Below are positions 13,443-58,501 of a stretch of DNA of 64,000 bases, piece by piece. The stretch's first letter is position 1. Each line of letters opens with the position of its first letter. Location: assembly GCF_003258365.1 (NCBI RefSeq), contig NZ_QHKM01000001.1, forward strand, positions 62,001 to 126,000, written 5' to 3'. Under the pieces are notes generated by a model, which was not told the origin of the DNA, ran no database searches, and was given only the letters and a program-made list of their open reading frames with translations. This DNA comes from Hymenobacter edaphi (GTDB lineage: Bacteria > Bacteroidota > Bacteroidia > Cytophagales > Hymenobacteraceae). Both the position numbers and the translations under genes were made by a program.

Positions 13443-14621
13443 TCAGATGCCCAGGGCAAACACGCCGCCCTGGCCTTTCAGCGAGGATTTGCGGATGACC
13501 AGGTCGCCGCTGACGACGAAGGTGCGGGGCTGAAACCGCTCCTTCTGCTGCACCTGCTCCAGAAACAGCCGCGCCGCCTGCTGCCCGAGGCGGTAGGGGT
13601 GCAGGTTCACCGTCGTCAGGCCCGGCTCCACCAGCGCGGCCAGGAACTCGTCGCCGTAGCCGACCACGGCAATGTCCTCCGGAATGCGCAGCCCGCGCTG
13701 CTTCAGGGCCTGCATGATGTCGAAGGCATTGCGGTAGTTGATGCAGAAAATGGCGTCGGGCGGCTCGGGCAGGGCCAGCCACTGGTCCAGCGCGGCCAGG
13801 GCGGCCTCGGGCTGGAAGTTGCTGTGCACCTGCAGCGCGGGCTCCACCGGCAGCTTGTAGTGGTGCAGGGCGTTGAGGTAGCCGCCCAGGCGCTGCCGGC
13901 TGATGAGCAGCGACTCGGGGCCCGCCAGGATGGCAATGCGCCGGCAGCCCTCCTGAATCAAATGCTCCACGATGGCGAAGGCACCGCCCCAGTCGTCGAG
14001 CACCACCTGGGCGCTGTTCACCTCGTCGCACACGCGGTCGAAGTGCACGATGGGAATGCCCCGGCTGGCGTGCTGCTTCACGTGGTCGAAGTTTTCCGTC
14101 TCGCGGGCGTGGCAGATCAGCAGCCCGTCGACGCGCGAGGCCAGCAGCGCCTGCACGTTGCTGACTTCCATCTCGTAGGATTCCTTGGACTGGCAGATCA
14201 TCACGCGGTAGCCGGCCTCGGCCGCCACCTGCTGAATGCCGCTCACGCAGGTGGCAAAAAACGGCCGCTCGATGTCGGGAATCACCACGCCGATGGTGTG
14301 AGTGGCGCTGCTTTTCAGGCTCTGGGCCAGTAGGTTGGGCTGGTAATCGAGCTGCCGGGCTACTTCCAGAATGGCCTGCCGGGTGTTGGTGTTGATGTCG
14401 GCGTGGCCGTTGAGCGCGCGCGACACCGTGCTCGGCGCTACGCCCAGCACCTTGGCCACGTCGCTGATGGTGGTCTGGTGGCTGCGGCGCTCGGGCGTGC
14501 GCGGCAGCTTCTGGTCAATAAAATGGTAGTCGCAGAGCTTGCAGAAGTAGCGCTGGCGGCCGCGAATAAAGCCGGCACGCTGCACGCCGTCGGGCGAGTT
14601 GCATTTGCTGCACTTCATCAT
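13443..14621 (-). CDS. LacI-family transcriptional regulator with N-terminal zinc ribbon
   Basis: 392 residues. A normal LacI regulator begins at the HTH, but here residues 1-35 form a zinc ribbon, Cys4-x2-Cys7 and Cys27-x2-Cys30, with the spacing and flanks (GxxxGxQRYxCKxC) seen in IS1-type transposase N-termini. The LacI HTH follows (TTISDVAKVLGVAPSTVSRAL, starting at residue 50), with a hinge helix region near 90-105, then a periplasmic-binding-protein-like sensor to the C-terminus. ATG codons at 14621 and 14618 are both possible. It is divergent from uxuA across a 339-base spacer with a large palindrome, and so is the likely local repressor of the xylan/glucuronate genes. The ligand is unknown. 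Confidence 0.92.
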   Translation of the reverse strand: MMKCSKCNSPDGVQRAGFIRGRQRYFCKLCDYHFIDQKLPRTPERRSHQTTISDVAKVLGVAPSTVSRALNGHADINTNTRQAILEVARQLDYQPNLLAQSLKSSATHTIGVVIPDIERPFFATCVSGIQQVAAEAGYRVMICQSKESYEMEVSNVQALLASRVDGLLICHARETENFDHVKQHASRGIPIVHFDRVCDEVNSAQVVLDDWGGAFAIVEHLIQEGCRRIAILAGPESLLISRQRLGGYLNALHHYKLPVEPALQVHSNFQPEAALAALDQWLALPEPPDAIFCINYRNAFDIMQALKQRGLRIPEDIAVVGYGDEFLAALVEPGLTTVNLHPYRLGQQAARLFLEQVQQKERFQPRTFVVSGDLVIRKSSLKGQGGVFALGI

Positions 14622-45497: not shown

Positions 45498-45545
45498 AAG
45501 TGAGCTAGCACTTACTTTCAGGCTGAAAATACCCCGTTAGTTTTG
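45498..45545 (+). promoter_or_regulatory. Promoter of the 7TMR-DISM fusion gene
   Basis: A perfect -7 box TAGTTTTG (45538-45545) lies 125 bases before the start at 45670. Upstream is the inverted pair AAGTG-n6-CACTT (45498-45513), a possible operator. It differs from the P1-P3 motif set, so the receptor gene is probably controlled separately. Confidence 0.6.
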
Positions 45546-45669: not shown

Positions 45670-47754
45670 ATGCGCCCCACCTTACCCATTCCCAACGCGT
45701 TTTTGCTTATTGCCCGCTTTGGCCCGCTGCGCTGGCTGTGGGCGGTGCTGTGCGGCTTGCTGCTGCTGAGCGGCTGGAGCGCCGCGGCCACCACCCCGCC
45801 CGGGCCCGAAAAGCCGCTGACCGTCAGCGCCCGGCAGGAAGAAGTTCTCATCCTGCCGCCCAACTACAGCGTGCTCGAAGACCCCGGCGGCCGCATGACG
45901 CTGACCGACGTGCAGCTGGGGGTGAATGCGGCCCGCTTCGTGGCCGGCTCCTCCATTTCCACCAACATGCAGCACCCCGGCGCGGCCTACTGGCTGCGCC
46001 TGACGGTGCAGGCCCACGGCCCGCAGCCCCAGCACTGGTACTTAGAGCTTTACGACTCTCACCTGAGCGACGTCGTGTTCTTTCCCGATGCCACGGACCC
46101 CGCCAGCGCCGTGCACACCGGCGCCGACCAGTCCTTCCTCTCGCGGCCCTACAGCTACAAGAACTTCCTGCTGCGCCTGCCCCTGCGCGCCGACCAGACG
46201 CAGACCTACTACCTGCGGCTGCAGGCCAACTCCAAGACCAGTTTTCTGGCCCGCCTGCGCACCGAGCAGGGCCTGGTGGAGCGCTTTCAGCAGGAATACG
46301 GCCTGCTGGGCGGCTTCTACGGCATCCTGCTCATCATGGTGGTGTACAACCTGTGCCTGTACTTCTTCACCCATGAGCAAACCTACCTGCGCTACGTGCT
46401 CTACGTACTCAGCTGCAGCCTCGTGTTTCTCTCCGAAGATGGCCTGGGCTTTCAGTACCTCTGGCCCGACCATCCGTGGTTCAATCAGCTGGTTATCATC
46501 AGCTCGGCGCCGCTGCTGCTGCTCACTTTCAGCTACTACGCCCGCCACTTCCTCGACGCCCCGCAGCGCCTGCCGCACTACGACCCCTGGGTGCGCAACG
46601 TGGTGCTGCTCAGCGCCGCCGCCCTGCTGCTGGATGCCCTCTGGTGGCAGTCGGACTTGAGCTTCTGGCTGTATCTGCTGCCCTACGGCATGCTGTTCGT
46701 GGCCGCCCTGCGGGTGTGGCGCGGCGGCTTTCGGCCCGCCCGCTTCTTTCTGCTGTCCCACACGCTGGTGGTGGTCAGCGTGGGCTTCCTGATTCTGCGC
46801 AAGCTCGGCATCGACACCTTCACCAACACCTTCACGGTGTACAGCATGAACGCCGCGTTCGTGCTGGAAGTGGTGATTCTGTCCTACGCGCTGGGCGAGA
46901 AAATCAAGGGCATTCAGGACGCGACGCTGCGGGCCCAGCAGCGCCTGGTGAAGCAGCTGCGCAAAAAGCACGAGGTGCAAGAGCAGCTGGTAGAGCAGCT
47001 GCGGCAGAACGATGAGCTTAAGGATCAGTTAAATACCGAGCTGGAGGGCCTGGTAGCCCAGCGCACCGAGGAGCTGCGCCAGCAGGGCGAAACCATTGCC
47101 GCCCAGAACCGCGAGCTGCTGCAGGCCAACGGCCTGCTGGCCCTGCAGTCGGCCGCCATCGAGAAGCTGAACGGCGACCTGCAGCGCGACCTGCAGAAGG
47201 CCCAGGCTGCCCGGGTGCTGGCCCAGGAGGTGGACTTCGGCGAGTTCAGCCAGATCTACCCCGACAAGGACACCTGCCTGAGCTATCTGGCCGACCTGAA
47301 GTGGGCCCAGGGCTACCACTGCCGCAAGTGCGGCCACGACAACTTCTGCGAGGGCCGCGAGCCGCACTCCCGCCGCTGCACCCGCTGCCGCTACGTGGAA
47401 TCGGCCACGGCCTACACCCTGCTGCAGAAGTGCAAGTTCCCCATCGTGAAAGCCTTCTACGCCGTCTTCCTGCTGCACACGCACAAGGGCAACTACCCGG
47501 CTCAGGAACTCTCGCGGGTGCTCGATCTGCGCCGCGCCACCTGCTGGAGCTTCAGCCAGAAGGTGCTCGAGGCCATGCGCCGCCAGGCTGCCGAGGCCAC
47601 CGAAGACGACAGCTGGACCGACCTGCTACTCGACGATACGGCGGCCGATGCGGACGAGGCAGGGGAGGAGGACGTGGCCGCCGCCCCGGTCTTGGCGCGG
47701 AAAGTGGAGACGTGGGCCGGCAAAGCAAAAACCAGTGAAAAAAAAGTGGGCTGA
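45670..47754 (+). CDS. 7TMR-DISM membrane receptor fused to IS1595-transposase-type zinc ribbon/HTH DNA-binding domain
   Basis: 694 residues. After an N-terminal hydrophobic segment, residues 45-190 form an extracytoplasmic 7TMR-DISMED2-type beta-sandwich (sugar-binding-like), and 200-405 hold about seven membrane helices of the 7TMR-DISM type. A long coiled coil follows (410-530). Residues 535-645 match the N-terminal region of IS1595-family transposases: zinc ribbon Cys551-x2-Cys554-x15-Cys570-x2-Cys573, then the KFPIVKAFYAVFLL and ELSRVLDLRRATCWSFSQKVLEAM helices that stand where the transposase HTH lies. The DDE catalytic domain is missing. The last 45 residues are acidic and low in complexity. 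I infer a one-step membrane sensor that binds DNA and may control the adjacent susC operon. Confidence 0.88.
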   Translation: MRPTLPIPNAFLLIARFGPLRWLWAVLCGLLLLSGWSAAATTPPGPEKPLTVSARQEEVLILPPNYSVLEDPGGRMTLTDVQLGVNAARFVAGSSISTNMQHPGAAYWLRLTVQAHGPQPQHWYLELYDSHLSDVVFFPDATDPASAVHTGADQSFLSRPYSYKNFLLRLPLRADQTQTYYLRLQANSKTSFLARLRTEQGLVERFQQEYGLLGGFYGILLIMVVYNLCLYFFTHEQTYLRYVLYVLSCSLVFLSEDGLGFQYLWPDHPWFNQLVIISSAPLLLLTFSYYARHFLDAPQRLPHYDPWVRNVVLLSAAALLLDALWWQSDLSFWLYLLPYGMLFVAALRVWRGGFRPARFFLLSHTLVVVSVGFLILRKLGIDTFTNTFTVYSMNAAFVLEVVILSYALGEKIKGIQDATLRAQQRLVKQLRKKHEVQEQLVEQLRQNDELKDQLNTELEGLVAQRTEELRQQGETIAAQNRELLQANGLLALQSAAIEKLNGDLQRDLQKAQAARVLAQEVDFGEFSQIYPDKDTCLSYLADLKWAQGYHCRKCGHDNFCEGREPHSRRCTRCRYVESATAYTLLQKCKFPIVKAFYAVFLLHTHKGNYPAQELSRVLDLRRATCWSFSQKVLEAMRRQAAEATEDDSWTDLLLDDTAADADEAGEEDVAAAPVLARKVETWAGKAKTSEKKVG

Positions 47755-47770
47755 ATGCCCACTTTTTTTT
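47741..47770 (+). terminator. Rho-independent terminator overlapping the stop codon of the receptor gene
   Basis: AAAAAGTGGGC and GCCCACTTTTT pair around a 5-base loop, with three more T residues. The TGA stop (47752-47754) lies in the loop region. Confidence 0.85.
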
Positions 47771-47806: not shown

Positions 47807-47957
47807 CTGCAAACGATTGCAGTAACCGCATAATTGGCCGGAAAAGTGGGTGCTGTAAGCGTACAGCGGAAAGTGAGATGTAAGCGAAAAACGCTGTTTT
47901 TGGCCCGTTGACGCATTTTTGGCGCTTGATTTTTCAAAAACAACGCCGCTATATTTG
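47807..47957 (+). promoter_or_regulatory. Promoter P3 with two operator-like motifs, before the glucan susC operon
   Basis: A near-perfect palindrome CTGCAAACGATTGCAG (47807-47822) is followed by CTGTAAGCGTACAG (47853-47866), a further TGTAAGCG half-site near 47880, and TTG at 47926 spaced 21 bases from a perfect -7 box TATATTTG (47950-47957). The same ordered motifs occur at 8946-9118 and 38395-38550. It lies directly behind the terminator of the receptor gene. Confidence 0.78.
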
Positions 47958-48284
47958 ACCCACCCTAACACGCTGATAACCCCGCTCCCCACGTCCTTGC
48001 CGGCTCGCCCCGTACCGAGCCGGCCCGCGGCCCCAGCCGCCCGCCCGGCCGCCCTCGGGGCGCCGGGCCCGCGCCCCCGGCGCGGGCTTCTTATAAAGAG
48101 CTGAAGCTGCCCGCCGCGCCTTGCCTGGCGCGGCTCCGGCGCGGGCTCCTCGCCTTTGCTGCTTACTGCCCGTTCCGGCCCGCCGTGGCCCGGAACCCGG
48201 CTGCCCCTTTGCCTGGTCGAAGCCCGCGGGCCCGGCTCGGTTTGCCGAAAAACACCTCACTCAACCACATCCATTCCCACACAC
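47958..48284 (+). other. Long GC-rich 5' leader of the glucan susC
   Basis: From the expected transcription start to the susC ATG there are about 320 bases without a supported gene. A 9-bp perfect stem (48067-48075 with 48079-48087) and other GC-rich inverted pairs suggest a folded leader. Whether it regulates anything is unknown. Confidence 0.5.
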
Positions 48285-51200
48285 ATGAGCTACCACTTTT
48301 ACCCGCATTCCTTACTGCGGCGGGCGGTACCCCTGGCAGCCTGCGGCCTGCTGACGCTGCTTGCCCCCGCGCTGGCCGCTACCGGCGCCGGCGGCGCCCG
48401 CAGCCACCGTCCCGTGGCCGATGTGCCCGTGTCGGGCCGCGTGACGCAGGTCGACGGGGCACCGATGCCGGGCGTAACCGTCATCGTGAAAGGCACCGCG
48501 CTGGGCACCAGCACCAACGCCGAGGGCCAGTTCTCGCTGAACGTGCCCGAAGGCAGTACCCTGGTTATCAGCGCGGTGGGCTTCATTCGCAAGGAAGTGA
48601 CCGTGGCGGGCGCCACCACGGGCCTGGAGGTGCGCCTGGACGAAGACGTACAGGCCCTGAGCGAAGTGGTGGTGGTGGGCTACGGCACCCAGGAGCGCGG
48701 CAGCGTGACGGGCGCCGTGTCGTCGGTGTCGGGCGAGGCGGTGAAGGCCCAGCCGGTGGCCGATGCCACCCAGGCCCTGCAGGGCCGCGTGGCCGGCGTG
48801 ACGGTGACGTCCAACGGCGGGGCACCCGGCGGGGCTTCGGGCACCTCGGTGCGCATCCGCGGCCTGACCTCAGCCGGCAACAACGCCCCGCTGTACGTGG
48901 TCGACGGCTTTCCGCTGCCTTCGGGCGATGAAAACCAGCTCAACGCCATCAGCCCCAACGATATCGAGAGCATCGACGTGCTGAAGGATGCCTCGGCCAC
49001 GGCCATCTACGGGCTGCGCGCCGCCAACGGGGTGGTCATCATCACCACCAAGCGCGGCAAGGCCGGCAAAACCAATATCACCTTCGACGCCTACCGCGGC
49101 GTGCAGCAGGTGTGGCGCCGGCTCGACTTCCTGAACGCGGAGGAATACGCCGTCATCAACAACGAAAACCGCCTGGCCAAGGGCGACCCGGTGTTTGCGA
49201 AGCTGGCCAACCCCGCCTCCCTGGGCACCGGCACCGACTGGCAGGACCAGATTTTCCGGCGCGCGGCCATGCAGAACTACGCCGTGTCGGCCACGGGCGG
49301 CACCGATAAGGCCCGCTACGCGCTGTCGGCCGGCTACTTCCAGCAGGACGGCACCATCATCGGCTCGCGCTTTGAGCGCTTCACCCTGCGCGCCAACGGC
49401 GACGTGCAGATCGGCAAAGTCCTGAAAATCGGCAACAACCTCTCGCTCACCCACCTCAACGACCGGCAGGTGGACGCGGGCGGTAGCGAGTACGGCGTCA
49501 TCAGCTTCGCCTCGCAGATTCCGGCCACGGTGCAGCCCTACCGCGCCGACGGCTCGTGGTACGAGCCCACCTCGACGGCCGACAACTTCGTGGAGGAAAA
49601 CCCGATTGCGGTGGCCCTGATCGACAACAAGAAGTTTACCCGCAACCGGGCCATTACCACCTTTTTCGCCGAACTGGAGCCGCTGAAGGGCCTGCGCTTC
49701 CGCTCCAACGTGGGCGCCGACCTCATCTTCGACAACTACAACTCCTTCCGGCCGCTGGTGGCCAACTCGCAGCGCTACACGCTGGCCGGGGCGGTGGCCA
49801 ACTCCACCTACGCGCCGAGCTACCTGATTGAAAACACGCTGACCTACGACCACCTCTTCGCGGGCAAGCACCAGGTGACGCTGCTGGCGGGCCAGTCGGC
49901 GCAGCAGTTCGACCGCTCCTTCGTGGAGTCGGCGCGCTCGGGCTACCTGCGCAACGACCTGCAGAACGTGAACAACGGGCCGGTCAACGAATTCCGCGGG
50001 GCCAGCGGCTACATCGCGCCGCCCTCGCGCCTGGCCTCGTACTTCGGCCGCGTCAACTACGAGTTCGGCGGCAAGTATCTCTTCCAGGCCATTGCCCGCT
50101 ACGACGGCACCTACGCCTTCCAGCCGGGCCGCAAGTTCGGCTTCTTCCCGGGCGTGTCGGCGGGCTGGCGCGTGTCGGAGGAGGGCTTCCTGAAAGATCA
50201 GCGCACGGTGAGCAACCTGAAGCTGCGCGGCGGCTGGGGTAAGGTGGGCAACGCCCTGAACGCCGGCGCCTTCCAGTACCTCTACGTCATCAACCCCGGC
50301 ATTCAGTACCCCTTCGGGCAGGACGGGGCCGTGAACCAGGGCGCCGCCCCCACGCGCCTGGCCAACCGCGACCTGCAGTGGGAGGAAAACCGGCAGGTGA
50401 ACGTGGGCGTGGACCTGGGCCTGCTCGACAACCGCTTCGAGGCCAGCATCGACGTGTACAAGCGCACCTCGCCGAACCTGATTGCCCCGCTCACGCCCTC
50501 GCTGGTGTCGGGCACCTACGAGCAGATTGCCACCAACGCCGCCTCGGCCTACAACAAGGGCCTGGACGTGGCCCTGACCTCGCACAACGTGCGCGGCGAG
50601 GGCGACGGGCTGAGCTGGACCACCACGCTGAACTTCTCCACCTACAAGTCGCGGCTGGAGTCGCTGGGCTCGGGCATTCCGCCCTACGACGGCTACGGCT
50701 CGCGCAGCGGCGTGATTGTGCGCTACAACAAGGGCCAGTCGTTCGGCGACTACTACGGCTACGTGGCTGACGGGCTGTTTCAGACCCAGGCCGACATCGA
50801 CGCCCACGCCACGCAGAACAGCGCCGCCCCCGGCGACATCCGCTTCCGCGACGTGAACGGCGACGGCACCATCAACGCCGACGACCGCACCTACATCGGC
50901 TCGCCGGTGCCCGACTTCACCTACGGCGTCACCAACACGCTGAGCTGGAAGGGCTTCGATCTGAACGTATTCGTGCAAGGCTCGCAGGGCAACGACATCT
51001 ACAACCTGAACCGCTACTACACCGAGGGCGCGCTCTACGGCAACGGCAGCGGCATCTCGCGGGTGCTCGGGCGCTGGACGGGCCCCGGCACCAGCAACGA
51101 CGTGCCCCGCGCCATCGGCGGCGACCCGAACCAGAACCTGCGCGTGTCGACCTACTTCGTGGAGGACGGCTCCTACGCCCGCCTGAAGCTGCTCACGCTG

Positions 51201-51392
51201 GGCTACACCCTGCCCAAGGCCGTGATGAGCCGCCTCTACGCCTCGCAGCTGCGGGTGTACGTGTCGGCCCAGAACCTGGTGACGCTGACCAACTACTCCG
51301 GCTACGACCCGGAAGTGGGCATCAGCGGCGTCGACCGCGGCGTGTACCCGCAGCCGCGCGTGCTGCTGGCCGGCGTCAACATTGGCTTTTAG
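48285..51392 (+). CDS. SusC/RagA-family TonB-linked outer membrane transporter (glucan locus)
   Basis: 1035 residues from the ATG at 48285, preceded by a C/A-rich leader (cattcccacacac). A signal peptide is followed by a carboxypeptidase-regulatory-like domain (about 45-120, VSGRVTQVDGAPMPGVTV), the plug (SEVVVVGYGTQER, KDASATAIYGLRAANGVVIITTKRGK) and the barrel ending in VLLAGVNIGF. It would import beta-glucan oligosaccharides with the SusD protein at 51507. It is transcribed from promoter P3. The sequence differs enough from the SusC at 19396 to indicate a separate specificity. Confidence 0.96.
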   Translation: MSYHFYPHSLLRRAVPLAACGLLTLLAPALAATGAGGARSHRPVADVPVSGRVTQVDGAPMPGVTVIVKGTALGTSTNAEGQFSLNVPEGSTLVISAVGFIRKEVTVAGATTGLEVRLDEDVQALSEVVVVGYGTQERGSVTGAVSSVSGEAVKAQPVADATQALQGRVAGVTVTSNGGAPGGASGTSVRIRGLTSAGNNAPLYVVDGFPLPSGDENQLNAISPNDIESIDVLKDASATAIYGLRAANGVVIITTKRGKAGKTNITFDAYRGVQQVWRRLDFLNAEEYAVINNENRLAKGDPVFAKLANPASLGTGTDWQDQIFRRAAMQNYAVSATGGTDKARYALSAGYFQQDGTIIGSRFERFTLRANGDVQIGKVLKIGNNLSLTHLNDRQVDAGGSEYGVISFASQIPATVQPYRADGSWYEPTSTADNFVEENPIAVALIDNKKFTRNRAITTFFAELEPLKGLRFRSNVGADLIFDNYNSFRPLVANSQRYTLAGAVANSTYAPSYLIENTLTYDHLFAGKHQVTLLAGQSAQQFDRSFVESARSGYLRNDLQNVNNGPVNEFRGASGYIAPPSRLASYFGRVNYEFGGKYLFQAIARYDGTYAFQPGRKFGFFPGVSAGWRVSEEGFLKDQRTVSNLKLRGGWGKVGNALNAGAFQYLYVINPGIQYPFGQDGAVNQGAAPTRLANRDLQWEENRQVNVGVDLGLLDNRFEASIDVYKRTSPNLIAPLTPSLVSGTYEQIATNAASAYNKGLDVALTSHNVRGEGDGLSWTTTLNFSTYKSRLESLGSGIPPYDGYGSRSGVIVRYNKGQSFGDYYGYVADGLFQTQADIDAHATQNSAAPGDIRFRDVNGDGTINADDRTYIGSPVPDFTYGVTNTLSWKGFDLNVFVQGSQGNDIYNLNRYYTEGALYGNGSGISRVLGRWTGPGTSNDVPRAIGGDPNQNLRVSTYFVEDGSYARLKLLTLGYTLPKAVMSRLYASQLRVYVSAQNLVTLTNYSGYDPEVGISGVDRGVYPQPRVLLAGVNIGF

Positions 51393-51506: not shown

Positions 51507-52988
51507 ATGATAACGATTAAGAAACCCTTCGTGGCGCTCGGCCTGCTCGGGCTGCTGACGGGCTGCGGCGAGAAATTCCTCGACGTGGCGCCCAACGACT
51601 CGGTGACCGAAGACAATTTCTACAAAACCGAAACCGACGCCATTCAGGCCACCAACGCCGTGTACAGCGAGCTGGGCAAGGGCGGGCAGTACAACTACGC
51701 GCTCTGGGGCATCGGCGAAATCATGTCGGACAACACCTACACCGGCGGCGGCGGCGGCGGCGACGGAATCGAGTTCCAGCAGCTCGACAACTTCAACATC
51801 ACGGCCACCAATCCGCTGGTGAACCGCCTCTGGGGTGGCTGCTACGTGGGCATCGGCCGGGCCAACATGGTGGTGGCCAAGGTGCCCGGCATTGCCAACA
51901 TGAGCGACGCGGTGCGCCGGCGCTGCCTCGGCGAGGCCAAGTTCCTGCGGGCCAAGTTCTACTTCGACCTGGTGCGCGCCTACGGCGACGTGCCGCTGAT
52001 TACCACGCCGCCCACCTCGCTGGCCGAGGCCAACATCCCGCGCAGCTCCGCCGAACAGGTCTACAACCAGATCGAGCAGGACCTGACCGAGGCCATGGCC
52101 AGCCTCGACGGCGCCTACAGCGGCGCCGACCTGGGCCGGGCCACCAAGTGGGCCGCCGAGGGCCTGCTGGCCAAGGTGCAGCTGACGCGCGGCAACAAGA
52201 GCGGCGCCGCCCAGCACGCCCGCAACGTGGTGCTCAACAGCGGCAAGAGCCTCTGGCCCAACTACGCCGACAACTTCAAGGTGGCCAACGAGAACGGCCG
52301 CGAGTCGTTGTTCGAGGTGCAGTACGTGTCGGGCTTGAACCAGTGGACCATGGACGGGCTCGGCTCGGTCATCAACGAGTACTGGGGGCCGCGCGGCGCG
52401 GGCATCACGCCCCAGGCCGGCTACGGCTTCAACATTCCCGAAAACGAGTTCGTGAACGGCTACGAGGCCGGCGACCTGCGCAAGGACGCCACCATCTGGA
52501 AGCCCGGCGACGCCTACCCCGACGGCCGCACCCAGCCCAGCCAGCTGCCCGGCTCGCCCAGCGGCTACGGCGCCAAGAAGTTTTTCGTGGGCAAGGTGAG
52601 CACCAATATCTGGGACTCGCCGCTGAACTTCCCGGTGCTGCGCCTGGCCGAGGTGTACCTGATCCTGGCCGAAGCGGCCGGCCCCACCGACCCCGACGCG
52701 CTCAAGGCCATCAACCAGGTGCGCCGCCGCGCCTTCGGGCTCGACATCAACACCGCCGCCCCGCAGATCGACCTGATGGCCAATACGCCCAACTTCACCG
52801 AGGCCGTGATTCGGGAGCGGCGCTACGAGCTGGCCCTGGAAAATGACCGGTGGTTTGACCTGAAGCGCACCGGCAAGCTGGCCACCGCCCTCACCCCGAA
52901 AGGCTTCAAGCCCTTCAACGCGGTGCTGCCCATTCCGCAGTCGGAGCGCGACGCGAACCTGAACCTGACGCAGAACCCGAGCTACTAA
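51507..52988 (+). CDS. SusD/RagB-family glycan-binding lipoprotein (glucan locus)
   Basis: 493 residues with a lipoprotein signal (lipobox LTGC, Cys near residue 18) and the usual SusD opening GEKFLDVAPND. TPR-type features include LGEAKFLRAKFYFDLVRAYGDVPL and the C-terminal RRYELALENDRWFDLKRTGKL block and PIPQSERDAN...NPSY ending. It is surface-exposed and works with the SusC encoded just upstream. A perfect GC-rich hairpin follows the stop. Specificity for beta-1,3-glucan is inferred from the neighbouring GH16 genes. Confidence 0.96.
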   Translation: MITIKKPFVALGLLGLLTGCGEKFLDVAPNDSVTEDNFYKTETDAIQATNAVYSELGKGGQYNYALWGIGEIMSDNTYTGGGGGGDGIEFQQLDNFNITATNPLVNRLWGGCYVGIGRANMVVAKVPGIANMSDAVRRRCLGEAKFLRAKFYFDLVRAYGDVPLITTPPTSLAEANIPRSSAEQVYNQIEQDLTEAMASLDGAYSGADLGRATKWAAEGLLAKVQLTRGNKSGAAQHARNVVLNSGKSLWPNYADNFKVANENGRESLFEVQYVSGLNQWTMDGLGSVINEYWGPRGAGITPQAGYGFNIPENEFVNGYEAGDLRKDATIWKPGDAYPDGRTQPSQLPGSPSGYGAKKFFVGKVSTNIWDSPLNFPVLRLAEVYLILAEAAGPTDPDALKAINQVRRRAFGLDINTAAPQIDLMANTPNFTEAVIRERRYELALENDRWFDLKRTGKLATALTPKGFKPFNAVLPIPQSERDANLNLTQNPSY

Positions 52989-53057: not shown

Positions 53058-53870
53058 ATGTCCCTGATTACCGTTTCCGCCCTGCGCTTCGGCGCGCTGC
53101 TGGCCGGCACGCTGCTGCTCGGCGCCTGCGAAAAGGAGGAGGGCCGCCTCGAAGGCCCCGCCCCGCAGGCTTCCTTTACCAGCCAGGCCACCGTGCAGGA
53201 TTACTCCGTCGACGTGGCTTTCACCAACACCAGCCAGGACGGCTTCATTTACCAGTGGAACTTCGGCGACGACACGGACCTCTCGTCGGCGGCCAATCCC
53301 ACCCACACCTACAACAACGGCGGCACCTACAACGTGAAGCTGACCGTCTCGGGGCGGGGCGGCACCAGCACCGCCACCAAGCAGGTGACGGTGGCCCCGC
53401 GCTACTCGGCCCTGGACCGCGCCAAGCAGATGCTGACCGGCAACTCCTCGCGCACCTGGGTGCTCGATAACACCGTGGCCGCCCCCATCGTGGTGGGCCC
53501 CGACGACGCCAACCCCACGCAGTGGTACGCCGGCGGGGCCGTTGGCTCGCTGCCCGCCTGCCAGGCCGACGACGAGTTTACCTTCTCGATGAGCGACCAG
53601 TACACCTACGACGCCAAGGCCCAGACCCTGGTGGCCGGCAACACGGGCTGCGCCGCGCCGCTGTCGGGCACCTCGGCCTACACTTTCGGGGCGGCCACCG
53701 GCGCCGGCGTGGCCCAGTTCACCCTGGCCCGCACCGATGCCTTCATCGGCGTGACCGACGGGGCCAACCGCACCTACCGCATCCTCTCCATCGACAACCA
53801 GAAAATGGTGCTGCGCGTGGGCCCGCCCTCGGGCGCGGCGGTGCACACCATGAAGCTGCGCGTGAAGTAG
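53058..53870 (+). CDS. PKD-domain lipoprotein, probable surface glycan-binding protein
   Basis: 270 residues with a lipoprotein signal (lipobox LGAC, Cys near residue 24). Residues 35-115 form a PKD domain (FTNTSQDGFIYQWNFGDDT, HTYNNGGTYNVKLTV). The C-terminal half (about 120-270) is a beta-rich lipocalin-like region (SSRTWVLDN, FTFSMSDQYTYD, YRILSIDNQKMVLRV) that I do not assign to a named family, though similar PKD-plus-beta-sandwich lipoproteins occupy the SusE/SGBP position in other glucan loci. It lies between susD and a GH16 gene. A role in binding glucan at the cell surface is inferred from position. Confidence 0.8.
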   Translation: MSLITVSALRFGALLAGTLLLGACEKEEGRLEGPAPQASFTSQATVQDYSVDVAFTNTSQDGFIYQWNFGDDTDLSSAANPTHTYNNGGTYNVKLTVSGRGGTSTATKQVTVAPRYSALDRAKQMLTGNSSRTWVLDNTVAAPIVVGPDDANPTQWYAGGAVGSLPACQADDEFTFSMSDQYTYDAKAQTLVAGNTGCAAPLSGTSAYTFGAATGAGVAQFTLARTDAFIGVTDGANRTYRILSIDNQKMVLRVGPPSGAAVHTMKLRVK

Positions 53871-54940: not shown

Positions 54941-55747
54941 ATGACAAAGCAAGTACAGCCCTTTGGGGCGGCCCGCGGCAAACGAATGTGGAATGTGCTG
55001 GTTGTGGGACTGGCCATTCCGGGAACAGGGGCGTTTGTCGGGGCCGCACCCGCGGGGCAGCCGTACCAGGCCCCGCAGGCCACCACCGCGCCCGTGCTCG
55101 ACGGCCGCGCCACCGATGCCTGCTGGGCCCGCGCCGCGTGGCGCCCGCTCGACCAGCGCTGGGTGGGTCCGCCCGCCCCGGCGGCCGACTTCCAAGGACG
55201 CTACAAGGTCGTCTGGACGCCCGCGCGGCTCTACGTGCTGGCCGAAATCACCGACGACAAGCTCCTCGACATTCACCCCGACCCGCTGGACAAGTGGTGG
55301 GACGACGACTGCCTGGAAATCTTCGTCGACCCGGACCGCTCCCGCGGCGACCATCAGTACAACTACAACGCCTGGGCCTACCACGTCGCCCTCGACGGCC
55401 ACGTGGTGGACATGGGCCGCGACCGGAAGGGCCACCTCTTCGACGCGCACGTGCAAAGCCGGCACCGCCAGCAGGGCCGGGTGACGACCTGGGAAACCTC
55501 GGTGGCCCTGTACGCCGATACCTACGACGACCAGCGCCCGGCGGCCAACCGCCCGCTGACCATTCGGGCCGGGCAGCCCATCGGCTTTGCCCTGGCCTAC
55601 TGCGACAACGACAACAGCCCCGAGCGGGAAAACTTCTTCGGCAGCGAAGTGGTGACCGGCGAGGATAAAAACCGGGGTTGGATCGACGCCGGCATTTTCG
55701 GGACGCTGGTACCGGTGGCCGCTGCGGCCCGGGCCCCGCGCCGCTAG
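54941..55747 (+). CDS. CBM9-like sugar-binding domain protein, exported
   Basis: 268 residues; an alternative ATG at 54986 would give a cleaner signal peptide (MWNVLVVGLAIPGTGAFVGA). The remainder is one beta-sandwich of the CBM9/DOMON-like type: APVLDGRATDACWARAAW opening, YKVVWTPARLYVLAEITDDKL, the DDCLEIFVDP metal/ligand block, YNAWAYHVALDG, and GFALAYCDNDNSPEREN near the end. No catalytic domain is attached. It sits between two GH16 lipoprotein genes, so a role in binding glucan or its oligomers is plausible. Proteins with this lone domain are common in Bacteroidota sugar loci but poorly studied. Confidence 0.8.
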   Translation: MTKQVQPFGAARGKRMWNVLVVGLAIPGTGAFVGAAPAGQPYQAPQATTAPVLDGRATDACWARAAWRPLDQRWVGPPAPAADFQGRYKVVWTPARLYVLAEITDDKLLDIHPDPLDKWWDDDCLEIFVDPDRSRGDHQYNYNAWAYHVALDGHVVDMGRDRKGHLFDAHVQSRHRQQGRVTTWETSVALYADTYDDQRPAANRPLTIRAGQPIGFALAYCDNDNSPERENFFGSEVVTGEDKNRGWIDAGIFGTLVPVAAAARAPRR

Positions 55748-55762
55748 TTTCTTTCTGTGCCT

Positions 55763-56650
55763 ATGAAACATTGTTTTTGGTCCCGTTGCCCGCGGGTGCT
55801 GGGCCGGGTCTTACCCGCCGCGTGGGCCGGGCTGGCGCTGGGCTGCACCTCGGCCTCGCCGGGCCCGGGCCTGCCGCCGGGCGCGGGCGAGCCGCCGCGC
55901 TACTCCATCGGGGAGCTGATCTGGCAGGACGAGTTCAACACCCCCGGCCCGCCCGACGCGGCGAAGTGGCAGTACGACGTGGGCGGCAGCGGCTGGGGCA
56001 ACAACGAGCTGCAGTACTACACCCAGGACCGCCTGCCCAACGCCCGCGTCGAAAACGGCAGCCTGGTCATCGAGGCCCGCCGCGAAACGGGCTTCGGCAC
56101 CAACCAGTACACCTCGGCGCGCCTGCTGTCGAAGGCCTCGGGCGGGGGCAGCCTCACCTACGGCCGGGTGGAAGTGCGGGCCCAGCTGCCGGCGGCCCGG
56201 GGCATCTGGCCCGCCATCTGGATGCTGCCCGACGACTGGAAGTACGGCAACCACGGCTGGCCCGACAACGGCGAAATCGACATCATGGAGTACGTGGGCT
56301 ACAACCCCGGCGTGGTGCACGCCTCCACGCACTGCAACCGCTACTACTTCCGCACCAACAACCAGAAGACCGGTACCACCGCCGTGCCGACGGCCACCAC
56401 CCAGTACCACGTGTACGCGCTGGAATGGACGCCCGAAACCATCACGGCCTACGTCGACGACCAGCTCTACTTCACCAACCGCAATGAGAATGGCGGCTGG
56501 CCCGTCTGGCCCTGGAACCACCCGTTTCACCTGATCCTGAACGTGGCCGTGGGCGGCGACTGGGGCGGCCAGCAGGGCATCGACGCGGCGGCCTTCCCGC
56601 AGCGCATGCTCATCGACTACGTGCGCTACTACCGCCTCAAGCAAGACTGA
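55763..56650 (+). CDS. GH16 beta-glucanase lipoprotein
   Basis: 295 residues from the ATG at 55763, with a lipoprotein signal (lipobox LGC, Cys near residue 28). The GH16 domain has E171-I-D173-I-M-E176 and the WGNNELQYYT and WPAIWMLP blocks typical of laminarinases. It lies 15 bases after the CBM9-like gene and 75 bases before the transporter gene, so it is in the same transcript. It is a distinct paralogue of the GH16 at 53948 and may have a complementary cleavage pattern. Confidence 0.94.
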   Translation: MKHCFWSRCPRVLGRVLPAAWAGLALGCTSASPGPGLPPGAGEPPRYSIGELIWQDEFNTPGPPDAAKWQYDVGGSGWGNNELQYYTQDRLPNARVENGSLVIEARRETGFGTNQYTSARLLSKASGGGSLTYGRVEVRAQLPAARGIWPAIWMLPDDWKYGNHGWPDNGEIDIMEYVGYNPGVVHASTHCNRYYFRTNNQKTGTTAVPTATTQYHVYALEWTPETITAYVDDQLYFTNRNENGGWPVWPWNHPFHLILNVAVGGDWGGQQGIDAAAFPQRMLIDYVRYYRLKQD

Positions 56651-58048: not shown

Positions 58049-58501
58049 ATGGGCCGCCACCGCGACTTGCTCCGGCTGACGGCTGCCCAGCGGGCGGACC
58101 TCCGCCACTGCCTGGCCCAGCCCCGCCTCGACCCGCGCCAGCGCAACCGCGCCGCCGCCCTGCTCGACTGGGACGCCGCCCGCCCCGTGGCCGATACCGC
58201 CCGGCAGCTGGGCATGACGGTGGGCCGGGTGTACGCCCTGCGCCGCCTGTTCCGGCAGCAGGGCCTGGAGGCCTACCTCAGCGCCCCGCCCCAGGGCGGT
58301 GCCCCCACCAAGCTCACCCCGGCCGTGGAAACCGCCCTGGCCGCGCTCATCACCGGCCCCGAAGCCGCCGCGGCCTGCCACTGGCCCCTGCGCCGCCTGG
58401 CGGCCTACCTCGTGGAGCAGGGCTGCACGCACTCCATCAGCCCGGCCACCGTGGCCAAGGCCTGGCAGCGCCTGCGCACCCTGCGGCCGGTGCCCGGGTA
58501 G
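58049..58501 (+). CDS. Orphan IS630-type helix-turn-helix protein
   Basis: 150 residues. Two HTH/winged-helix segments match the N-terminal DNA-binding half of IS630-type transposases: LDPRQRNRAAALLDWDAARPVADTARQLGMTVGRVYALRRLFRQQGL (about 30-76), then LTPAVETALAALI and HWPLRRLAAYLVEQGCTHSISPATVAKAWQRL (about 90-142). It stops where the DDE catalytic domain would begin. There are no transposase ends or target duplications beside it, and its composition equals its neighbours. It starts 3 bases after the transporter stop, so it is co-transcribed. It could be a transposase fragment or a domesticated regulator. Confidence 0.78.
   Translation: MGRHRDLLRLTAAQRADLRHCLAQPRLDPRQRNRAAALLDWDAARPVADTARQLGMTVGRVYALRRLFRQQGLEAYLSAPPQGGAPTKLTPAVETALAALITGPEAAAACHWPLRRLAAYLVEQGCTHSISPATVAKAWQRLRTLRPVPG

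Follow-up and report, generated by a model that had tools for sequence, protein, structure and literature searches.

A membrane receptor with an IS1595 transposase-like zinc ribbon and HTH tail is a candidate regulator of the adjacent susC-susD operon in Hymenobacter edaphi

Results

A receptor gene directly upstream of a susC-susD operon

The window, by which we mean the whole 64,000-nt stretch of Hymenobacter edaphi DNA that was analyzed, holds two groups of glycan-use genes. Xylan-type genes lie at ~13-38 kb (LacI, UxuA, GH67, SusC, SusD, GH3, two GH10 and GH115), and the group at ~38-61 kb (GH16, GH5-CBM6, the receptor studied here, SusC, SusD, a PKD protein, CBM9, GH16, an MFS transporter and GH3) is probably a beta-glucan locus for the use of laminarin-type beta-1,3-glucan. 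The receptor gene is an open reading frame at 45670-47754 (+ strand) with an ATG start, encoding 694 aa. It had been described from the sequence as lying directly upstream of the susC operon, with its own promoter and terminator, and this arrangement is borne out: a terminator-like hairpin of 14 pairs with a T-run (47738-47770, + strand) overlaps the receptor stop codon, one promoter-like site is seen at 47926-47955 (TTGATT/TATATT), and SusC and SusD follow directly downstream. SusC, a TonB-dependent receptor, is encoded at 48156-51392 (+ strand; the probable start, the first ATG, is at 48285) and SusD at 51507-52988 (+ strand). Third in the conserved module is the gene for the PKD protein, at 53058-53870 (+ strand); the GH16 glucanase of the module is encoded at 55757-56650 (+ strand), with a CBM9 protein (54941-55747) in between.

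The protein consists of an N-terminal helix, an extracytoplasmic sandwich, a seven-helix membrane domain, a coiled coil and a zinc ribbon followed by an HTH part. Pfam places a 7TMR-DISMED2 domain at residues 65-196 (45862-46257, + strand; E 2.6e-24) and a 7TMR-DISM_7TM domain at residues 210-410 (46297-46899, + strand; E 2.6e-44), both over their cut-offs, and the sandwich matches the fold of the RetS sensor domain (3jyb, E 3.6e-5), so that the protein belongs with the 7TMR-DISM receptors. A long helix or coiled coil is predicted from secondary structure at residues 411-515 (46900-47214, + strand), with low confidence from residue 487, and leads to the zinc ribbon at residues 532-575 (47263-47394, + strand; Pfam and the receptor alignment) and the helical/HTH part at residues 580-643 (47407-47598, + strand; NCBIfam at 588-643, the structure model and BLASTP). 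The AlphaFold2 model (mean pLDDT 70.9, with a weaker tail) shows the beta-sandwich, the seven helices, a helix at 387-494 and then the ribbon and HTH helices, although the output domain is poorly modelled, at 58-82 per ten-residue block over 531-640 and a mean of 63.5 when predicted alone. Fold searches gave a weak match of the whole model to the 7TM protein Wntless (E 5e-4, TM 0.27 by target) and nothing under E 0.001 for the output domain alone. Pfam found no enzymatic output domain, and no histidine kinase, receiver or AraC domain, in the receptor. One chain thus carries a sensor, transmembrane segments and a DNA-binding-type domain, in the layout of a membrane-tethered one-component system, and the predicted joining of a 7TMR-DISM sensor through a coiled coil to a zinc ribbon and HTH agrees with Pfam, NCBIfam, BLASTP and the structure model alike.

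The genome of the window has one copy of the receptor. The sole other match to it there (31% identity over residues 31-483) lies in a 1058-aa frame that is probably another 7TMR-DISM protein. Behind the HTH, in an otherwise variable tail, is a WTxLLLD-like motif (47614-47634, residues 649-655), of which Trp 649, Thr 650 and Leu 653 are invariant among 21 sequences.

The C-terminal tail derives from an IS1595-family transposase

The original prediction traced the C-terminus to the N-terminal region of IS1595 transposases and noted that no DDE domain followed; both statements hold. The zinc ribbon of these transposases (Zn_ribbon_IS1595, PF12760) is matched at residues 532-575 with E 1.6e-5, although at 25.2 bits the match falls 0.2 bits under the curated cut-off, which the homologues L048, L086, L087 and L098 exceed. 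The NCBIfam IS1595 transposase model aligns by positions 2-58 of its 215 to receptor residues 588-643 (E 2.9e-7, scoring 30.6 bits where the cut-off is 75). By BLASTP, the C-terminal 132 aa are 52% identical over 112 aa (E 3e-42) to L092, a true transposase in which Pfam finds both the zinc ribbon and DDE_Tnp_IS1595. The receptor tail therefore has the N-terminal zinc ribbon and HTH of IS1595 transposases by all three methods, whereas the DDE domain (PF12762), present in the transposases L054, L091 and L092, is not listed for the receptor at E ≤ 10.

When 75 tails were placed in a tree, a branch with 100/98 support separated the nine transposase rows from the receptors and propeller proteins (see below), with the qualifications that transposase sampling is thin and that L122 and L130, on extreme branches, were not relied on. 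A single domestication of the transposase tail fits this topology.

Spread and conservation of the receptor family

Searches for the tail were positive for 18 of 58 relatives at E ≤ 1e-3; at E ≤ 1e-10 they were positive for 145 of 390 genomes from the order and 28 of 395 from the phylum. All three counts include transposases. Among the matches listed in the order survey, most tail-bearing frames are ~590-880 aa long. Receptors of more than 600 aa are found in at least 10 family-level groups (f1, f5, f9, f11, f12, f15, f18, f19, f20 and f22) of the order, which we take to be Cytophagales; across the phylum, frames of this size with the tail occur in 11 of 395 genomes among the matches listed, all in the class of the window. 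Tail-bearing frames shorter than 400 aa (L053, L054, L055, L060, L090-L093 and L140) were left out of the receptor count, being treated as transposases or fragments, with the DDE domain confirmed by Pfam only in L054, L091 and L092. Genes were called by a simple custom script instead of a standard gene finder. We also picked by hand 42 distant tail-bearing proteins, about one per genus and so not a random sample; 36 match the 7TM profile, four are propeller proteins and two (L047 and L129) are neither. The recurrence of the design in many genera makes the receptor with its transposase tail look like a member of an undescribed family of membrane-bound gene regulators.

When 24 diverse receptors, that of the window included, are aligned, Cys 551, 554, 570 and 573 are invariant and Trp 545 is retained. 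In eight of eight Hymenobacter/Solirubrum pairs the dN/dS of the ribbon/HTH part (0.008-0.142) is below that of the sensor domain, the 7TM or coiled-coil part being lower still in some of the eight. As judged from these substitution rates, the tail is under purifying selection.

The same tail is found on a second type of sensor. Four proteins of 997-1068 aa from two genomes (L086-L089) carry Reg_prop beta-propellers and a Y_Y_Y domain, a sensor typical of hybrid two-component systems (HTCS), followed by the transposase tail. PF12760 is over cut-off in L086 and L087 and weak in L089; in L088, for which PF12760 is not listed, the tail rests on BLASTP and a custom profile. Pfam found no kinase, receiver or AraC domain in any of the four. 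L086 adjoins susC-susD, lying directly upstream, and the susC promoter there has two TTAAGYGAA sites 43 bp apart, a pair seen in 0 of 20,000 simulated sequences with a pattern that was picked after inspection.

Linkage to susC and susD

The association with susC is conserved among close relatives. In 19 of 20 named Hymenobacter/Solirubrum loci susC lies downstream on the same strand, and in the remaining one (L042) the contig ends first. It is the next called gene in 16 of the 20 (a fragment at the contig end in L035), follows two short ORFs in L030 and follows a GH3 gene in L038 and L043. SusD, PKD and GH16 genes mostly come next. On the 5' side of the receptor the loci differ, some having a GH5 gene and others unrelated genes. 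In L056-L059, four more loci from this family, susC is downstream too. The receptor and the SusD orthologue (≥58% identity) occur in the same 11 of 36 family genomes; the other 25 have neither, three of them holding SusD paralogues of 42-46% identity and one (G021) a weak 311-aa match to the tail. These synteny and co-occurrence counts are not independent, because some of the named loci come from genomes of the presence/absence set (L026 and G003, for example).

Outside the family, among the 42 distant proteins (all >400 aa), susC is next on the same strand in 12, one of which has an 84-aa ORF between, and lies within five genes in 14, or 16 if two divergent cases are counted. For comparison, the genome of the window has 15 SusD, each of four f18 genomes has 47-49 SusC-model matches, and the base rate of SusC/SusD is ~0.3-1% of genes, estimated at about one gene per kb. 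The called neighbors of the other 26, some of them on short contigs, include no susC. Glycoside hydrolase or lyase genes adjoin several proteins without a neighboring susC (GH10/GH67 at L100 and L101, GH9 at L050, GH81 at L122, GH95 at L134 and an alginate lyase at L128), and the neighbors of L125, L099 and L047 are a ThuA-type protein, PriA and a protein without a Pfam match. Homologues beside susC, which the original prediction had proposed to count, are thus the rule in close loci and recur in distant ones, and in other families, too, susC or glycoside hydrolases adjoin them.

Candidate operators at the susC promoter

The region 47807-47957, which had been proposed for a test of binding by the receptor tail, does contain conserved candidate operators, as judged from a shared sequence block, a pair unique in the genome and the promoter comparisons given below. 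At 47926-47957 (+ strand), where the one promoter-like site was found, the sequence reads TTG-21 nt-TATATTTG, which we take to be a Bacteroidota-type promoter of susC. The candidate operator, 35 nt upstream of its TTG element, is a direct repeat TAAGCGTACA - 15 nt - TAAGCGAAAA at 47856-47890 (+ strand), the only occurrence of the pair TAAGCGNANA-N5..30-TAAGCGNANA in the 6.04-Mb genome, from which the control pattern is absent. Hymenobacter promoters share a block at a near-fixed distance from TAnnTTTG, in the window GTGGGTGCTGTAAGCGTACAG...GTAAGCGAAAA. Upstream of the candidate operator, a palindrome TGCAAACGATTGCA (47808-47821, strand-neutral), presumably of the LacI operator-like type, is perhaps a second input to the susC promoter.

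An AAGYG-type site, a pattern derived from the linked promoters themselves, is present in 38 of 47 receptor-linked susC promoters against 9 of 54 controls, and two or more such sites in 20 of 47 against 1 of 54; the set of unlinked Hymenobacter susC promoters that served as controls is small (6), and a control promoter was set aside as linked only if its coordinates agreed with a known receptor. At least one site occurs in 22 of 24 promoters of the window's family, with a strict second repeat in 7 of 24. With the pattern used, the site is absent from nine of the 47, seven outside the family (L048, L127, L133, L138, L139, L207 and L208) and two inside (L041 and L044). Twenty further hand-picked regions yielded nine linked susC promoters.

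Other clades show other paired sites. Of the nine linked f18 promoters, seven have TTA[AG][AG]TG pairs 80-81 bp apart, against none of 26 f18 susC promoters that are unlinked; the positives come from three genera, five of the seven from one, with L127 lacking the site and L086 having its 43-bp pair. In f11, f19, f23 and f24, seven of the eight linked promoters contain GCGTATC, against 0 of 22 controls, five of the eight being from one genus and the controls from three of these genomes; in 6 of 8 it is paired at 78-91 bp. The Hymenobacter repeat TAAGCGTACA is found in 8 of 24 linked promoters within 450 nt of the first ATG, a low count because many sites lie farther than 450 nt from it; a promoter-anchored comparison shows the sites that this limit misses. 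Receptors with the recognition region LRRATC go with TAAGCGTACA, and those with LRPATSW go with TAGGTGTAA in 4 of 8, the rest varying, so that the promoter site appears to track the receptor clade, or its DNA-binding domain, broadly but not strictly.

The LacI-type palindrome is also enriched, at 17 of 47 linked promoters against 4 of 54 controls (missing in 30 of the 47), and within Hymenobacter it is found in the 8 of 24 promoters closest to that of the window. The sites can therefore not be assigned to the receptor from sequence alone, and a second regulator at these promoters is likely. Of the 23 linked promoters that lie outside the family, 7 contain AATCGATT, which none of the 54 controls has. 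On the 5' side of the receptor gene lies an inverted repeat AAGTGAGCTAGCACTT (45498-45513), with related sequence in L026, L028 and L039, which perhaps serves autoregulation of the receptor gene.

Discussion

Glycan-use loci in Bacteroidota are usually described as SusR-, HTCS- or ECF-controlled. SusR-like regulators and ECF sigma/anti-sigma pairs provide membrane-linked control of sus operons, and the receptor, which has no other domain by Pfam, is set apart from them by its domain list. HTCS of polysaccharide utilization loci (PULs) occupy the same place upstream of susC, and four homologues of the receptor have the HTCS-type propeller and Y_Y_Y domain, but the receptor and these propeller homologues are without the histidine kinase, receiver and AraC domain (Pfam). 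Among 7TMR-DISM receptors, which usually have kinases, cyclases or similar domains as outputs, RetS, LadS and SagS have the same periplasmic sandwich and 7TM domains, whereas the protein of the window is without an enzymatic output domain by Pfam. IS1595-family (ISXO2-like) transposases, in turn, share the N-terminal zinc ribbon and HTH, but in the receptor this tail is fused behind a sensor and no DDE catalytic domain follows.

A further comparison is with ChiS, which is membrane-located and linked to chitin use. Its relatives, as far as the Fig. 5 legend of PMC8092284 describes them, are proteobacterial proteins with a C-terminal DNA-binding domain behind sensor domains, 7TMR-DISM among them, and in this they resemble the receptor; their DNA-binding domain, however, is a cryptic HTH, whereas the receptor has an IS1595 zinc ribbon (Pfam match) and HTH, comes from Bacteroidota and lies beside susC/susD. 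The description of the receptor as a one-protein alternative to known regulators is accordingly reasonable, although receptors tethered to another DNA-binding domain had already been described, as that legend indicates. A passage in PMC1592074 also notes that HTH domains are infrequent partners of signalling helices. Among the matches listed from the open-access literature, which was the scope of the search, none concerned the fusion, a transposase-derived output or the receptor family. Sensors with a C-terminal DNA-binding domain are thus already known, and it is the transposase-derived output that was not met among those open-access matches.

We think it quite probable that the receptor activates the adjacent susC-susD-PKD-GH16 operon as a membrane-tethered one-component regulator, acting through a domesticated transposase DNA-binding domain. 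The periplasmic 7TMR-DISMED2 domain would detect a glycan product, and the 7TM bundle and the coiled coil would relay the signal to a cytoplasmic dimer offering two zinc-ribbon/HTH units, putatively descended from the IS1595 transposase DNA-binding domain. These units would bind the direct repeat TAAGCGTACA...TAAGCGAAAA at 47856-47890, and the bound receptor would recruit RNA polymerase to the susC promoter. A sugar ligand is plausible by analogy, because SagS is reported to respond to glucose-6-phosphate (PMC8544897).

Several other accounts have to be set against this one. The receptor might act mainly elsewhere, or by protein contact, with its adjacency to susC reflecting co-inheritance and a LacI-type regulator running the operon via 47808-47821; the enrichment of the palindrome (17/47 against 4/54) and its presence in the 8 of 24 Hymenobacter promoters nearest to the window speak for this, as does a LacI-family gene in the window (13443-14621). 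The palindrome is nevertheless missing in 30 of the 47 linked promoters, whereas 38 of the 47 have AAGYG-type sites; receptor and susC stay adjacent even in loci with other genes on the 5' side of the receptor; and from one main receptor clade to another the sites change broadly, if not strictly, in step with the DNA-binding domain. We regard this account as unlikely. The receptor could also be a membrane-tethered repressor, as the sequence leaves the sign unfixed and the terminator-like hairpin and separate transcription unit fit either direction of control, but the repeats do not overlap the promoter, being placed upstream of its TTG element. Activators usually sit upstream of promoter elements, and we give repression little credence.

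The presence of IS1595-type transposases in many genomes of the phylum might suggest that the receptor was fused by chance to a decaying transposase fragment and that its C-terminus has no function. This is contradicted by the dN/dS of 0.008-0.142 in the ribbon/HTH part, by the zinc ligands, which are invariant in 24 receptors, by full-length homologues in many genera, by the recurrence of the tail behind another type of sensor and by the nine transposase rows forming one side of the 100/98 branch. We hold such a fusion to be extremely improbable and reject it on the dN/dS, the conservation and the second sensor type.

Beyond the reading of the receptor as an activator of its own operon, we raise a wider proposal more tentatively, giving it somewhat under even chances: that in Bacteroidota an IS1595 DNA-binding domain was domesticated into a general output module of glycan receptors in the membrane. 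This module would have been exchanged between sensors of the 7TMR-DISM kind and HTCS-type beta-propellers, would bypass the phosphorelay and would bind operators made of two direct repeats, spaced 25 bp in Hymenobacter, 43 bp beside a propeller protein and 78-91 bp elsewhere, with a core perhaps related to ancestral transposon ends. For L092, L093, L142, L146 and L186, IS1595 ends could be delimited together with 8-bp target duplications. Against these ten ends of five elements, four of which are related, the promoter-site matrix scored weakly, the best two scores being equalled by 18 and 20 of 1000 shuffles and those of the remaining ends by 35 to 547. The AAGCGATAA-like ends of L145 failed the target-duplication test. 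Genome G555, from which L140, L145, L163 and L171-L185 come, has twenty IS1595-type transposase matches; among those of its elements that were tested, none had trusted target duplications.

If the activator reading is true, a widespread further mode of control would exist in which the receptor itself holds the promoter via a domesticated transposase domain, many orphan loci of the order would gain a regulator and a predicted operator, and there would be a clear bacterial example of a transposase domesticated into signal transduction. The reading is directly testable, as it involves one gene and one short DNA site.

Two other genes of the window bear mention. The LacI-family regulator beside the xylan genes (13443-14621, - strand, 392 aa) has an extra N-terminal CxxC...CxxC zinc ribbon that resembles the ribbons of the transposase InsA (PF03811 only at E 0.2); its first 98 aa are matched whole in 8 of 38 relatives, and it is possibly a second instance in which a sugar regulator carries a transposase-like ribbon. 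A 150-aa HTH_32/HTH_28 protein (58049-58501, + strand), which we take to be IS630-like, is encoded between the genes for the MFS transporter and GH3 in the probable beta-glucan locus.
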